This document shows positions 255 to 37,753 of a DNA stretch of 37,753 bases, piece by piece. Origin of the DNA: a virus; the IMG/VR virus record IMGVR_UViG_3300027741_000140, positions 1 through 37,753 of that record; one strand, 5' to 3'. Position numbers and translations under genes: made by a program. The first letter of the stretch is position 1; the number at the start of each line of letters is the position of its first letter. Below the pieces are notes generated by a model. The model did not search any database and had not been told where the DNA came from. It saw nothing but the letters and a program-made list of their open reading frames with translations.

Positions 255-3065
255 ATGGAATCAAGAATCTATAACGACCTTGCCCTGTACGGCGCATTGG
301 TTTTGGAGGTCAATGAGACTGGCTTCCCTGCAAACCCACAAATTGGTACTTTCCTGATTAAGGACAGCAACCTCTACGGCTACGTCAGCATTGGTGGTCT
401 GGAGACTTGGTATCCTTTCTCACATAAGACTCTGTCTTACATTCACTCTCAAGGCTTGAGTTCTACCACTTGGACTGTGGAGCACAACCTTGGTACTACC
501 AACGTCTGGATTCAAGTTAAAGACCAGAACGGCAACATCGTATCTGTTGGCAAACAAGACATCAATAACAACTCTTTCCGCCTGACATTTACTGAAGCCG
601 TTCGCGGCACAGTGATGGTGGTGGCTCCTGACTCCGTAGACGTACCTGAAGTTAAGGCCACCGTGATTGACGTGGGTAATGTCCACATCAGCACTTCTGG
701 TATTACTGTAAACGGCTCGTCAGTTCTGACTTCCGCAAACATTCAAGACCAAATCGACGATTCCATCGCCGCTGTAGTGGGTGCTGCTCCCGCTGCTTTG
801 GATACTCTAGAAGAGATTGCTGCTCAGTTGGCTAACGACGAGTCGGCTGTTTCCTCATTGACAACGATTGTTTCCAATAAAGCTAACAAAGACCTCTCTA
901 ACGTCACCACTCTCCCTGCTGGCGTAGTAGCTCAGTTGAAGGGTGATACAGGTGCTACGGGCGCAACTGGAGCCACTGGTGCTCAAGGCCCTGCTGGCCC
1001 TAACGGTGCTAAAGGTGATACTGGTGCCCAAGGCCCACAAGGTATCCAAGGTGTTAAAGGTGATACCGGAGCCACAGGTGCTACCGGAGCTACAGGCCCA
1101 CAGGGTATTCAAGGCGTTAAAGGCGACACAGGTGCACAAGGCCCTCAAGGTGAAAAGGGTGACAAAGGCGATACGGGCGCTACTGGAGCTGCGGGTGCCA
1201 CGGGCGCACAAGGGCCTCAAGGTATTCAAGGCCTCAAAGGAGACAAGGGCGATACTGGCGCTACTGGCCCAACAGGTGCTACTGGAGCTGCTGGCGCTCA
1301 AGGTATTCAGGGTCTGAAGGGTGATAAGGGTGATACAGGTGCAACTGGTGCTACAGGCCCAGCAGGTTCTGACGCTTCCGTAACTACTTCTTCTATCCAG
1401 TCGGCTCTGGGTTACACCCCCGTTAATCCTTCGACATTAGCCTCTGTTGCTACTGCTGGTACTTACGCAAGCCTGACAGGCAAACCTTCTCTGTCTACCG
1501 TGGCGACATCGGGTCTGTACTCTGACTTGTCTGGTAAGCCTACTCTCGCAACCGTAGCGACTTCTGGTGACTACGCAGACCTGACTGGTACGCCTAGCCT
1601 GTTCTCGGGTTCTTATAACGACCTGACCAACAAGCCATCCGTGGCTGCTGCTGGCGGCTCTGCTTCGCAAGACTTCGCCACTAAAGCCTTGACCGTAAGC
1701 GGCGACATCCTCCCATCCGTGGCAGGTGTGACCAACATCGGCTCTGCTACCAAGAAGTTCGGCGCTATCTACACAAAAGAATTGCGTATTGACGCTAACA
1801 CTCTGTACGTGGATGGCGTTCCTGTTCTGGGTTCTTCTGCCAACACTATTACCTTTACCTCTGATAACAATCAAGGTATGCGTATCGCCACTAGCGGTAC
1901 AGGTACTTTGGTTTTGGACTCCGCAGCTTCTACAACCATCCAAACTACAGGCCAGAACGGTGATGTACTGATCCAGTCTTCTGGACAGGGCGCTCTGACT
2001 CGCGTAACCTCTGCTACGCAAGTTACCCTGACTGCTCCTACCGTAGCAACTGTGGGTGACCAGACTATCTCTGGTAACCTAACCGTTTCGGGAAACTTCA
2101 CCGTAGCGGGCACTCCAACAACTGTGAACTCCACGGTGTTGACCGTTAAAGACAACATCATCACCGTCAACAAAGGTGAAGCCGGATCGGGCGTAACACT
2201 GCGTTATGCTGGTTTGGACGTGGATCGTGGCGACTTGGCCCGTCAGCGTCTGTTGTGGGATGAAACATCTGGCAAGTGGGTTGCTGGCCCAACCTCTCAG
2301 GAAGTGGCTTTGGCTACCGAGTCCTATGTAACCACAGCGATCTCTGGTAAGGCTAACACCTCCAGCCTAGCTACCGTGGCTACAAGCGGCTCTTACGCCG
2401 ATCTGACCAACAAGCCTACCTACGCTACCGTAGCATCTACTGGCGCTTATTCTGACCTCACAGGTAAGCCTAGCCTTGCCACCGTGGCTACTTCAGGTGC
2501 TTATGCTGATCTGACTGGCAAGCCTTCTTTGGCGACTGTAGCCACCTCGGGTGATTATGGCGACCTGATTAACAAACCTAGCCTGTTGTCACTGGGTTCC
2601 GTCGCAGGTGCGGCATTGGGCGTGGCTGCTGCTGGAACTGCTACTACAGCGGCTCGTTCAGACCACGTACACGCATCTCCTACAACCGTTTCTGGTAATG
2701 CCGGAACAGCTACTTCGCTTCAGAACGCACGCTTGATTGCAGGTGTGTCGTTTGACGGAACAGCTAACATCAACATTCCATTCTCTGGATTGTCTAGCGT
2801 ACCCACTACAATTGCTGGGTTTGGTATTACTGACGCTTACACAAAGACTGCGATTGATACAGCGATTGCTTTGAAGGCAAACTTGGCATCGCCAACATTT
2901 ACTGGTACAGTAAGCGGTATCACAGCCGCAATGGTCGGCTTAGGTAACGTAGACAACAAATCTAGTGCAACAATTCGTGGTGAACTGACCTCTTCTAACG
3001 TGACAACAGCACTCGGATACACCCCCATCAACCCAGCTAATACAATAGCCGCTGGAACATTCTAA
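255..3065 (+). CDS. Collagen-like tail fibre protein
   Basis: A 936-residue fibre, predicted trimeric, for host recognition. The N-terminal 135 residues look like a beta-structured virion-attachment domain ([16 protein letters not shown] region, typical of phage tail proteins). Residues about 230-373 are an uninterrupted Gly-X-Y collagen-like region ([21 protein letters not shown]). Two blocks of the shaft repeat [15 protein letters not shown] flank a central beta domain. The motif ALGYTPxNP, common in phage fibres, occurs after the collagen segment and again at the C terminus. No chaperone or enzymatic domain is visible. ATG follows AAAGGAATTTAA. The next gene is another fibre, so the two may form a branched or sequential fibre. 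Confidence 0.85.
942..1373 (+). repeat. Collagen-like Gly-X-Y coding repeat
   Basis: Tandem 9-base units encoding Gly-X-Y triplets, with [18 protein letters not shown] and GLKGDKGDT variants. The unit length is a multiple of three, so gain or loss of units keeps the frame. The repeat also opens long false ORFs in other frames on both strands. Confidence 0.9.
1432..1650 (+). repeat. First block of fibre shaft repeats ([15 protein letters not shown])
   Basis: Three to four imperfect copies of a roughly 17-residue unit, such as [19 protein letters not shown], just after the collagen region. The same unit recurs at 2365-2600 in the same gene. Confidence 0.75.
2365..2600 (+). repeat. Second block of fibre shaft repeats
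   Basis: Four copies of the same roughly 17-residue unit, e.g. [18 protein letters not shown], separated from the first block by a domain of about 240 residues. The DNA copies are close enough to recombine. Confidence 0.75.
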
Positions 3066-5579: not shown

Positions 5580-5867
5580 ATGACAAACTGGACTATTACC
5601 CAAACTAACTACCTGACTTCTACAGGTTACATCACAACAGCACATTGGACTGCTACCGCCGTGGATGGAGACTACACAGCTTCTATCTACTCTACTTGTT
5701 CATTTGGTGAGGGTACTCCCACAATCCCTTACGCCGACGTTACAGAGCAAGAAGTATTGGATTGGTGTTGGGCTAACGGCGTAGACAAAGACGCTACAGA
5801 AGCCGCCTTGGCCGAGCAGATCGAACTGCAAAAGCACCCAGTACAAGAAGCTGGCGTACCTTGGTAA
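5580..5867 (+). CDS. Small phage protein next to tail fibre
   Basis: A 95-residue protein without signal or membrane segment. The N-terminal half is rich in Thr, Tyr and Trp in a beta-strand pattern; the C-terminal half is acidic and helical and ends in GVPW. Similar proteins of this size sit beside tail-fibre genes in many phages, where they are labelled hypothetical. ATG is preceded by AAAGGAAATATC. A role as fibre partner or assembly factor is guessed from position only. Confidence 0.7.
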   Translation: MTNWTITQTNYLTSTGYITTAHWTATAVDGDYTASIYSTCSFGEGTPTIPYADVTEQEVLDWCWANGVDKDATEAALAEQIELQKHPVQEAGVPW

Positions 5868-33517: not shown

Positions 33518-33542
33518 AATTTAGTTGAGAAAGTCTGTCGTA

Positions 33543-33572
33543 TTGTTTAATTTGGGCTTATACTTACATCAC
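33543..33572 (+). promoter_or_regulatory. Upstream element shared with 35029 (possible promoter)
   Basis: TTGTTTAAT followed by TATACTTACATCACTGAC. The same words occur at 35029-35060, upstream of another gene, in the same order. This gap of 98 bases is otherwise empty. TATACT resembles a -10 box, but no convincing -35 at the right distance was found. Confidence 0.35.
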
Positions 33573-33615
33573 TGACCAAGCAATAGTGCGAGGCAGACCA
33601 GAGAAGGAAAGCGAA

Positions 33616-33900
33616 ATGAACAACGACATCAACTTTAACTGCGTAGACACTCTGGGCTCACTCTTGGCCCAGATCGCTGACTTGACCAAGCAAGCAGAAG
33701 CAATCAAGGACTCCATCAAAGAGTCTGCCAGCGCAGGCGGCGCTAAGGTTGTAGAGGGCGCCATCTTCAAGGCTACCTATATTGAGTCCAACCGTTCTGT
33801 ATTCGACAAGGACGCCTTCATCAAAGAATTCGGTGCAGACGCCTACGCTAAGTTTACGAAAACCACAGCGGTTTTCAGCGTCAAGGTCACCAGCCGCTAA
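33616..33900 (+). CDS. Hypothetical protein
   Basis: A 94-residue protein: NCVDTLGSLLAQIADLTKQA begins a coiled coil to residue 40, followed by a beta part (GAIFKATYIESNRSVFDKDA) and a final strand, TKTTAVFSVKVTSR. Its layout (LGxLxAQIADL, then EGxxFxATxxxSxRxxxD) matches a phage family of unknown function. ATG at 33616 has AAGGAAAGCGAA upstream. It sits behind a possible promoter element and before a UUCG hairpin, and may be a strongly expressed, separately regulated gene. Confidence 0.65.
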   Translation: MNNDINFNCVDTLGSLLAQIADLTKQAEAIKDSIKESASAGGAKVVEGAIFKATYIESNRSVFDKDAFIKEFGADAYAKFTKTTAVFSVKVTSR

Positions 33901-35669: not shown

Positions 35670-36194
35670 ATGTCAGAAGTAAAAAAGAAAGTTGGGGCAC
35701 CGAAAGGGTCAGGCTCCAAGTACTCACAAGAGATTGCAGACAGGATATGCAAGGCAGTGTCCTGCGGCGTTCCACTGCGTCAAGTATGCAGGGAGGAGCA
35801 GATAAGCTGGAGCACGGTGTACGATTGGTGTAATGCTCACCCTGAGTTTGCCCCACGCCTCGCACACGCGCGCGACCTTGGCTTTGATGCGATTGCGGAG
35901 GAGGCGCTGGACATCTCCAACTCACCAGTGACTGGCCTCAAGAAGGTGTTCTCTCAGGGCGGTGATAAGGAGATCATCACAGTGACTGAGGAGGACATGC
36001 TTGGCCACCGCAAGCTGCAGATTGAGACGCGCCTGAAGCTGCTGGCCTGCTGGAATCCTAAGAAGTACGGCAACAAGGTTCAGATGGGTGGCGACGCCGA
36101 CAATCCGATCAAAATAGAGGCAGAGGTGCAGGCGCAGCAGCTGCTGGATGCATTGCTCAAGAACGTAGAGCTGACCAAGCAGGCTAATGGCTGA
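35670..36194 (+). CDS. Terminase small subunit
   Basis: A 174-residue protein: an N-terminal HTH region (YSQEIADRICKAVSCGVPLR, then STVYDWCNAHPEFAPRLAHA) and a C-terminal oligomerisation part (RLKLLACWNPKKYGNKV). The pattern matches Sf6-type small terminases. It recognises the phage DNA to begin packaging and feeds it to the large subunit, which follows with an eight-base overlap. ATG follows TTAGGACAGCAT. Confidence 0.85.
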   Translation: MSEVKKKVGAPKGSGSKYSQEIADRICKAVSCGVPLRQVCREEQISWSTVYDWCNAHPEFAPRLAHARDLGFDAIAEEALDISNSPVTGLKKVFSQGGDKEIITVTEEDMLGHRKLQIETRLKLLACWNPKKYGNKVQMGGDADNPIKIEAEVQAQQLLDALLKNVELTKQANG

Positions 36195-37605
36195 CATAGC
36201 CGCCCTGCTCGAGGACCCGCAGGTAAGGCAGAGCCTCGAGGCCGTATCGCCTGAGTACAGGCTGGCGTGGGCGTGGAGGATGACGTGGCTCAGTAAGCAG
36301 CATGCGCACCAGACGCTGCCAGCGGGGGATTGGTGGGCGATTTTCTTATGTCTTGCGGGTCGCGGGGCCGGTAAGACTCGTATGGCCTCGGAGCAAATTG
36401 CATGGTGGGCATGGGAAGAGCCCAACACCCGATGGCTGGTGGCCGCTCCAACCTCGGCTGACGTAAGGGCTACTTGCTTTGAGGGTGACTCTGGCCTTTG
36501 CACCGTCATACCGTCAGCGCTAATCGCCGACTACAACAAGCAGCACCACGAGCTGCGCTTGATCAACGGCTCCCTCATTAAGGGCATACCCGCATCCGAG
36601 CCTGAGCGCTTCAGGGGTCCGCAGTTCCACGGGGGCTGGTGCGACGAGCTCGCGGCATGGGACTATCTGCAGGAGGCGTGGGACCAGATACAGTTCGGCG
36701 TGCGCCTTGGAAAGCGTACCCGTCTCATCTGCACTACTACACCCAGACCCAAGGACCTCATCATCGAGCTCATTGGCCGCGAGGGTGACGACGTAGTGCT
36801 CACCACCGCATCGACCTATACCAACCTCGGCAACCTGTCCGAAAACTTCAGGAAGCAGATTCTGCAGTACGAGGGCACCACGTTGGGGAGGCAGGAGATT
36901 TACGCCGAGATCATCGACCCTGAGGAGGGCGGTATCGTCAAGCGCGATATGTTCAAGCTGTGGCCAGCTGGCAAGCCCTTCCCTCGCTTTGAGTACATCA
37001 TCCAGTCCTACGACGTGGCCACCAGCGAGAAGGTGCAGAACGACCCCACGGCCTGCATCACCTTTGGCGTGTTCAAGCCGCTGGACGGCCCTATGTCGGC
37101 TATGGTGATCGACTGCTGGCAGGAGCGCATGCAGTACCCCGACCTGCGCCCCAAGGTGCTGGAGGAGTACGAGACCGTCTTCGGTGAGGGCAAGGACCGC
37201 AAGAGGGTGGACCTGCTCCTCATCGAGGACAAGTCAGCTGGCATCTCCCTCATCCAAGACCTACAGCGTGCGCACCTCCCTGTGCGGGCGTACAACCCCG
37301 GCCGCGCCGACAAGCTGCAGCGCCTCAACATCGTCTCCAACATCATCGCCCGCGGCAGGGTGTGGATACCTGAGAGCGACCGCCGTAAGGGCTACGTCAA
37401 GGACTGGGCCGAGGGGTTCGTGAGTCAGATATGTTCCTTCCCCGAAACCACCCACGACGACCTAGTGGACGCATGCACTCAGGCGCTGCGTTACCTGCGC
37501 GACTCAGGGTGGCTGGACATCGATCCCCCACCGCGGGAGGACTGGGACGAGGACGACTACGCAGACACTGGACGAGTAAGAAGGGTGAACCCCTATGCAA
37601 TCTGA
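36187..37605 (+). CDS. Terminase large subunit
   Basis: A 472-residue ATPase-nuclease that packages DNA into the procapsid. Walker A is GRGAGKTR (58-65), Walker B ends in Asp153-Glu154 (GWCDELAAW), and the coupling motif is CTTTPRP (182-188). The RNase H-like nuclease shows Asp276 (QSYDVATS), Glu347-Asp348 (LLIEDKSAG) and Asp424/Asp425/Asp428 (THDDLVDA). Full length and intact. GC-richer in feel than the small early genes. No portal gene follows in the visible 148 bases. Confidence 0.9.
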   Translation: MADIAALLEDPQVRQSLEAVSPEYRLAWAWRMTWLSKQHAHQTLPAGDWWAIFLCLAGRGAGKTRMASEQIAWWAWEEPNTRWLVAAPTSADVRATCFEGDSGLCTVIPSALIADYNKQHHELRLINGSLIKGIPASEPERFRGPQFHGGWCDELAAWDYLQEAWDQIQFGVRLGKRTRLICTTTPRPKDLIIELIGREGDDVVLTTASTYTNLGNLSENFRKQILQYEGTTLGRQEIYAEIIDPEEGGIVKRDMFKLWPAGKPFPRFEYIIQSYDVATSEKVQNDPTACITFGVFKPLDGPMSAMVIDCWQERMQYPDLRPKVLEEYETVFGEGKDRKRVDLLLIEDKSAGISLIQDLQRAHLPVRAYNPGRADKLQRLNIVSNIIARGRVWIPESDRRKGYVKDWAEGFVSQICSFPETTHDDLVDACTQALRYLRDSGWLDIDPPPREDWDEDDYADTGRVRRVNPYAI

Positions 37606-37611
37606 TGAGAC

Positions 37612-37727
37612 CGTGATACAATGGAGGCGTTGTCGTAGGAAGCAACAGGTTCAAGCCGTTTACTCATGCCTCTTCTCCGCTTGCGGGGTTCCTACAGGGG
37701 GCAGTAGTAAGCGGCTTTTCTGTTTTC
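37612..37727 (+). ncRNA. Possible structured RNA / attenuator downstream of terminase
   Basis: TGATACAAT (37614-37622) looks like an extended -10 box. Downstream, GTAGGAA (37635-37641) can pair with TTCCTAC (37689-37695). AAGCCGTTTACT (37653-37664) can pair with AGTAAGCGGCTT (37706-37717) over 12 bp with one G-U pair. The two pairings interleave, so they are either mutually exclusive or a pseudoknot. CTCCG/CGGGG (37675-37688) forms a hairpin inside. TTTTCTGTTTTC follows. This fits a terminator with an alternative fold, or a small RNA. Confidence 0.4.
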
Positions 37728-37753
37728 TATGCAACCCTCAGAGCGGGTTAGCT

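Follow-up and report, generated by a model that had tools for sequence, protein, structure and literature searches.

A conserved pseudoknotted RNA behind a phage terminase gene and its likely place at the head of a two-part noncoding cassette

Introduction

What is encoded in the short interval that follows the packaging genes of this phage? The stretch analysed here (the window) is an IMG/VR record of 37,753 bases. It ends shortly after the gene for the terminase large subunit (TerL), whose TGA stop codon occupies 37603-37605, and behind this gene four complementary arms are interleaved in the order a-b-a'-b'. The original prediction, made from the letters of this one sequence, proposed that the arms form either a pseudoknot or two mutually exclusive folds, as part of an attenuator or a small structured RNA. 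Computational comparison establishes the pseudoknotted structure, its strand and spread, the position of its promoter and its coupling to a conserved block downstream. We put the probability at about 0.78 that the element is a conserved pseudoknotted RNA gene and the leader of a two-part cassette. Since the record breaks off less than 40 nt past the element, already inside the next conserved block, the sequence beyond it was taken from relatives. The features of the window are collected in Table 1.

Table 1. Features at the right end of the window
Feature	Position	Strand	Basis or remark
Terminase small subunit gene	35670..36194	+	Pfam Sf6_terminase 1.1e-28; phrog_1482 3.7e-31
Terminase large subunit (TerL) gene	36187..37605	+	Pfam Terminase_6N 1.9e-25; Terminase_6C 1.3e-9
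Extended -10 element, TGATACAAT	37614..37622	+	TerL-linked relatives keep CTGTGGTACA
Pseudoknotted RNA, whole element	37628..37722	+	Model R1, 95.5 bits, partly by construction because the window's own copy is among the R1 seed sequences
P1 hairpin	37629..37646	+	37629-37633 with 37642-37646; arm a in the loop; 98.0% of cells paired
Arm a, GTAGGAA, 5' strand of the pseudoknot helix	37635..37641	+	Pairs with 37689-37695; covariation and swap test
Arm b, AAGCCGTTTACT, 5' strand of P2	37653..37664	+	Covariation in the 100-sequence alignment; scan without fixed P2
P3	37667..37703	+	37667-37674 with 37696-37703; stacked onto P2, with a 2x2 internal loop between them
P4 hairpin	37675..37688	+	37675-37678 with 37685-37688; 97.0% of cells paired
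Arm a', TTCCTAC, 3' strand of the pseudoknot helix	37689..37695	+	Covariation and swap test, as for arm a
Arm b', AGTAAGCGGCTT, 3' strand of P2	37706..37717	+	As for arm b
U-rich tract after P2, UUUUCUGUUUUCU; putative intrinsic terminator	37716..37728	+	U-run kept across representatives
P0 (alternative helix), 3' strand	37723..37735	+	Pairs with 37629-37642, excluding P1 and the pseudoknot
Start of class D block, cut by the contig end	37736..37753	+	CCTCAGAGCGGGTTAGCT continues in L002, L005 and L008

The Pseudoknotted Fold

All four arms lie where they were first noted, and they are far from chance both in the fold measured against shuffles and in covariation among 100 relatives. Folded as a single sequence, 37606-37740 reaches -58.5 kcal/mol (z = -5.05), a value that none of 200 shuffles equalled. 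The strands follow each other in the order P1 5', a, P1 3', P2 5', P3 5', P4 hairpin, a', P3 3', P2 3', U-tract, so that P3 and P4 occupy the loop of the b/b' helix. This helix (P2) measures 12 bp in the window, including one G-U, and leads into the U-rich sequence as predicted.

The evidence for the fold comes from a covariance model, R1, which was built without the pseudoknot and used to align 100 matches. The full structure of 36 pairs (P1-P4 plus a/a') has 98.2% of its cells paired over the 100 sequences, against 40-55% when the structure is slid along the alignment, and 32 of the 36 pairs show double changes. The double-change cells number 545, a count reached by none of 500 shuffles, which do not remove shared ancestry. 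Every nested part contributes: the P2 and P3 helix has 99.8% of its cells paired and double changes at 18 of 20 pairs, while P1 shows double changes at four of five pairs and P4 at all four. For 32 sequences with a structure set by hand, the share of paired cells was 99.4%; in the preparatory alignment of loci, the correct start was assigned by hand at six that carry two GTTG starts. The pseudoknot columns taken alone, which R1 leaves unpaired, are 94.4% paired and hold 169 double-change cells, again a count that 0 of 500 shuffles attained. Furthermore, when loops and inner regions were exchanged between sequences, a helix of at least 7 bp was found in 7% of the swapped combinations and in 76 of the 77 native pairs.

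Do the two helices exist side by side, or does one replace the other? Because 98% of the cells pair with such a number of double changes, a/a' and b/b' must coexist; they covary in the same molecules, which is the mark of an H-type pseudoknot. The first of the two proposed arrangements is thus borne out, and the second, in which a/a' and b/b' exclude each other, gives way to a single pseudoknotted fold.

The first search pattern was placed on the P2/P3 core and fixed its letters, and a second scan was therefore run in which only P1 and arm a were fixed. It returned 75 distinct matches, 51 of them with the full core and nearly all others with an a' and a P2 that carry compensating changes (two were chance matches and one was cut off). 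Among the covarying versions of P2 are GGTTACT/AGTAACC and CCCCTAACT/AGTTAGGGG, so the conservation of P2 is not merely a product of the search. With respect to the strand, alignment A2 holds about 100 G-U cells and only 7 non-standard ones, which places the RNA on the + strand, and + strand matches to R1 score far above those on the - strand. Taken together, the comparison of related sequences makes it almost certain that the element is a conserved structured RNA.

Promoter and U-Tract

An extended -10 box had been noted just upstream of the arms, and it is indeed present in the window. The TerL-linked copies, the window included, possess this extended -10 without a recognisable -35 box. At loci away from TerL, a match of at least 9/12 to TTGACA/TATAAT is found in 70% of cases (4.7% of shuffles), and in most of them the -10 ends 6-7 nt ahead of GUUG. 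Most of these copies have a promoter-like site of their own at a fixed distance, as would an independently transcribed small RNA.

At the other end, 76 of 77 representatives have an uninterrupted run of 4-8 U, mostly 6, directly behind P2; the tract of the window is short, interrupted and among the shortest. A simple terminator scan reported none at the element because it admits loops of 3-8 nt only, and the loop of P2 greatly exceeds that of an ordinary terminator. Since a promoter precedes the fold and P2 runs into the U-tract, the element looks like a gene for an RNA of ~95-120 nt, and termination at the U-tract is probable. The host sigma70 RNA polymerase would start just ahead of GUUG. 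In the resulting RNA, P1 would offer arm a to a', which lies in the loop of the long P2/P3 hairpin, and their pairing would close a compact pseudoknot. P2 with the U-tract would probably end transcription, and the short RNA would be made by default.

The Downstream Block

What would be transcribed on read-through? Within the 200 nt after the U-tract, 66 of 72 loci fall into five recurring families (35, 17, 6, 5 and 3 members); most of the singletons resemble these five and only L157 clearly lacks a block. The block sits 15-40 nt downstream of the module, which is almost never without one, and the constant coupling to a downstream product that characterizes an attenuator is seen at nearly all loci with enough sequence. 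When the blocks of class A, of class B and of class C are aligned, double changes exceed those in shuffles (98 against at most 36 for class B) and class B carries single-base indels, which suggests that the blocks are probably noncoding structured RNAs. Two blocks folded singly did no better than shuffles.

The block classes (A/C/D, B, E, F, G and H) are conserved stretches of 200-400 nt that look noncoding and have no Rfam match; examples are L040:5560-5760, L202:3720-3960 (- strand) and L059:5560-5790. Class B holds a very conserved ACACGAGCAAGCCAGAGCRGGG..GGTGGGC. In L120 a tRNA-like stretch (5790-5855, 33.6 bits) is inserted inside the class-C block, and in L130 and L176 the U-tract is separated from the class-B block by a further conserved hairpin, GGAACTAG..CTAGTTCC.

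Where a class-B block lacks an R1 match, one of two arrangements is seen: either its own -10 lies directly ahead, or a module of unrelated sequence does. Seven such modules were examined, and in five the helices follow the same order, with 10-12 bp in a/a', 12-13 bp in P2 and 9-13 bp in P3. Modules of the same topology without similarity to R1 lie upstream of class-B blocks in L294, L297, L313, L318 and L337.

A Possible Alternative Helix on Read-Through

The 5' arm of the element can pair with sequence beyond the U-tract. Folding predicts P1-P4 for the terminated RNA and, for the read-through RNA, a long hairpin between the 5' arm and 37723-37735 (P0), with a minimum free energy of -50.5 against -36.9 for the nested fold without the pseudoknot. 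The complementarity tracks the individual sequence (z = 8.7, against 0.7-2.7 in strand, reversed and neighbouring-region controls). P0 covaries, although more weakly than the main fold, is imperfect in many members and was not evident in the same-topology modules of unrelated sequence. This weaker but covarying helix, rather than b/b', is the candidate for an exclusive alternative fold, and it suggests a leader that refolds on read-through.

P2 is left intact by P0 and by the pseudoknot alike. As neither competing helix disrupts it, the element does not show the pattern of a classical terminator/antiterminator switch. Of the two proposals made at the outset, covariation upholds the structured RNA; an attenuator is a possible role.

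How might such a leader work? In a mobile noncoding cassette of two parts, the RNA would supply the constant 5' module, and read-through would yield a second conserved and probably structured RNA. As the 5' arm re-paired beyond the U-tract, P1 and the pseudoknot would be undone, and a cis-acting, bistable leader of this kind could set the amount of the second RNA or trim its 5' end.

Spread, Neighbours and Mobility

Eighty loci that encode close relatives of this TerL were compared. In 23 sequences, counting the window, no more than 160 nt separate the motif from the end of TerL and its arms compensate visibly; in others it lies farther away. The P2/P3 core pattern occurs in at least 120 IMG/VR stretches, and other patterns add more. 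Most of its matches have no relative of this TerL nearby; the neighbours there include exonucleases, RusA, primase/helicase, HNH and capsid genes. Where TerL relatives lack the RNA, a conserved gene of ~62 aa overlaps the TerL end and its NRFEL motif lies about 31 nt after TerL; where they have the RNA, this motif is found 401-673 nt downstream of TerL with the cassette in between, which points to gain or loss of the cassette.

In L002, the closest relative (TerL 99% identical), the RNA belongs to a subtype different from that of the window. The gene after its cassette encodes at least 1183 aa with a PcfJ-like domain and is not the portal gene that had been thought probable behind the arms.

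A search of the phage collection gave a single match, MW202484.1, a complete GenBank phage that is itself assembled from metagenomic, environmental sequence and carries the module and block between a helix-turn-helix gene and rusA. A deposited 'hypothetical protein' at 33533-33892 (L343:3417-3776) overlaps this module and block and is likely a false gene call. Two MAG contigs also carry the element, one assigned to Comamonadaceae and the other to a 'beta proteobacterium'. The betaproteobacterial genomes searched (201 of the MAG's family and 369 of its class) returned only the starting contig and one match of 32 bits (G117), judged a chance hit with the inner part missing, and plasmids gave no match. 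The few named records (MW202484.1 and the MAG contigs) suggest a freshwater setting.

Weighing the Alternatives

Could the arms be by-products of a small overlapping protein gene? In the window a frame that begins at 37595 runs on without a stop as far as the contig end, and in most TerL-linked relatives it exceeds 90 codons. Its residues, however, are replaced wholesale from one RNA subtype to the next, in L052 and L063 it is cut short after 19 aa, a one-base paired indel in P2 shifts it, and in copies away from TerL no single frame stays open. On these grounds the overlapping protein was rejected as scarcely credible. It is also very improbable that the palindromes act as DNA, in packaging, in recombination or as an insertion site, in an element next to the terminase gene. 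The element adjoins TerL in the window and behaves as a movable cassette, as such a site might, but most copies lie away from any relative of this TerL, often beside replication or recombination genes, the G-U pairs fall on one strand only and the spacing to the promoter is fixed.

The remaining choice is between RNA roles. The terminated pseudoknot could be a trans-acting phage sRNA whose partner is a host or phage protein, or targets reached by base pairing, the neighbouring block then being a separate RNA that is merely co-inherited. The strong promoter, the terminator-like end, the compact fold and the strongly conserved P2/P3 residues (UUAC..UGC/GCA..GUAA) would all suit such a function. 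However, the block follows nearly always at a distance that leaves little room for a promoter of its own, modules of unrelated sequence and the same topology at the same position fit a structural or cis role better, and a fixed target sequence is unlikely because the loop with arm a occurs in at least 32 versions. We regard both the sRNA and the separate block as somewhat unlikely. Alternatively, module and block may form one long RNA of about 300-500 nt in which the pseudoknot is the 5' domain and the U-tract a linker. Their coupling agrees with this, as does the pairing of the 5' arm with the edge of the block; against it stand the U-run kept behind a G-C-rich stem of 12 bp and the class-B blocks that stand alone behind their own -10, and a single long RNA is quite unlikely. 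Because read-through would reach the second RNA and the 5' arm could then re-pair, the cis-acting bistable leader of that RNA is favoured over the trans-acting sRNA as the most likely role, with somewhat less than even confidence.

Comparison With Known RNAs

Permissive scans with Rfam 15 (4227 models) gave no match to the element in the window or at the loci of 15 relatives; the best hit to the element of the window was mir-210, on the other strand, with 17.6 bits against a gathering threshold of 50. There is no tRNA at the element, and no GOLLD or ROOL model matched in permissive scans of the module and block regions. The literature on freshwater phages, searched outside preprints and most subscription journals, contained no such RNA. 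This RNA family is absent from Rfam and undescribed.

The Pistol ribozyme was considered and rejected, with no match to its Rfam model and a different strand order. In pistol the pairing partner of the loop precedes the inner hairpin, whereas here a' follows P4 and the RNA has its own promoter and U-tract. The likeness lies in the combination of stems and a pseudoknot, since Pistol is a self-cleaving ribozyme of three stems in which the loop of the first hairpin pairs into a later helix (PMC4604425). GOLLD and ROOL are large structured noncoding RNAs of phages and prophages whose function is unknown, and GOLLD joins a conserved to a variable part through a linker that may carry tRNAs (PMC12286853). 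The cassette resembles GOLLD as a structured phage RNA of constant and varying parts, with the tRNA-like insert in the block of L120 as a further parallel; it differs from both in that the constant part is a 5' pseudoknot of ~100 nt that ends in a U-tract, and in having shorter parts. The put RNA of phage HK022 acts on the polymerase, suppressing pausing and termination (PMC9378689). Here the likeness is of architecture only (a structured RNA that starts a phage transcript, a host-type promoter and a possible termination point behind). The RNA described here has a stem and U-tract of its own at the end and gives no sign of acting on polymerase. Bacterial leaders with intrinsic-terminator attenuators share the promoter, the folded leader, the stem with its U-tract and the downstream product, although this product is apparently another noncoding RNA instead of an mRNA and P0 spares the terminator stem.

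As a tentative reading, less likely than not, an interchangeable noncoding RNA operon may be common to the phages of uncultured betaproteobacteria in fresh water, with a leader defined by its fold that governs or processes different structured RNA bodies. The pseudoknot leader would then exist in many unrelated sequences with one topology. If true, the operon would be a modular, RNA-only regulatory system without a described counterpart, and one leader topology with several RNA bodies suggests that the noncoding RNA operons of environmental phages are more organised than is known. The element also adds a widespread RNA family where phage annotation is blank or, as in MW202484.1, gives a false 'hypothetical protein', and model R1 and the structure of the cassette make the family directly testable.

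Other Observations

In the TerL proteins of L069, L072, L079 and L080 homology ends at residue 434 and is followed by intein-like sequence (CVDSLTQVQM...). At the other end of the window, 255-3065 encodes a tail-fibre-like protein with Gly-X-Y repeats of the collagen type.
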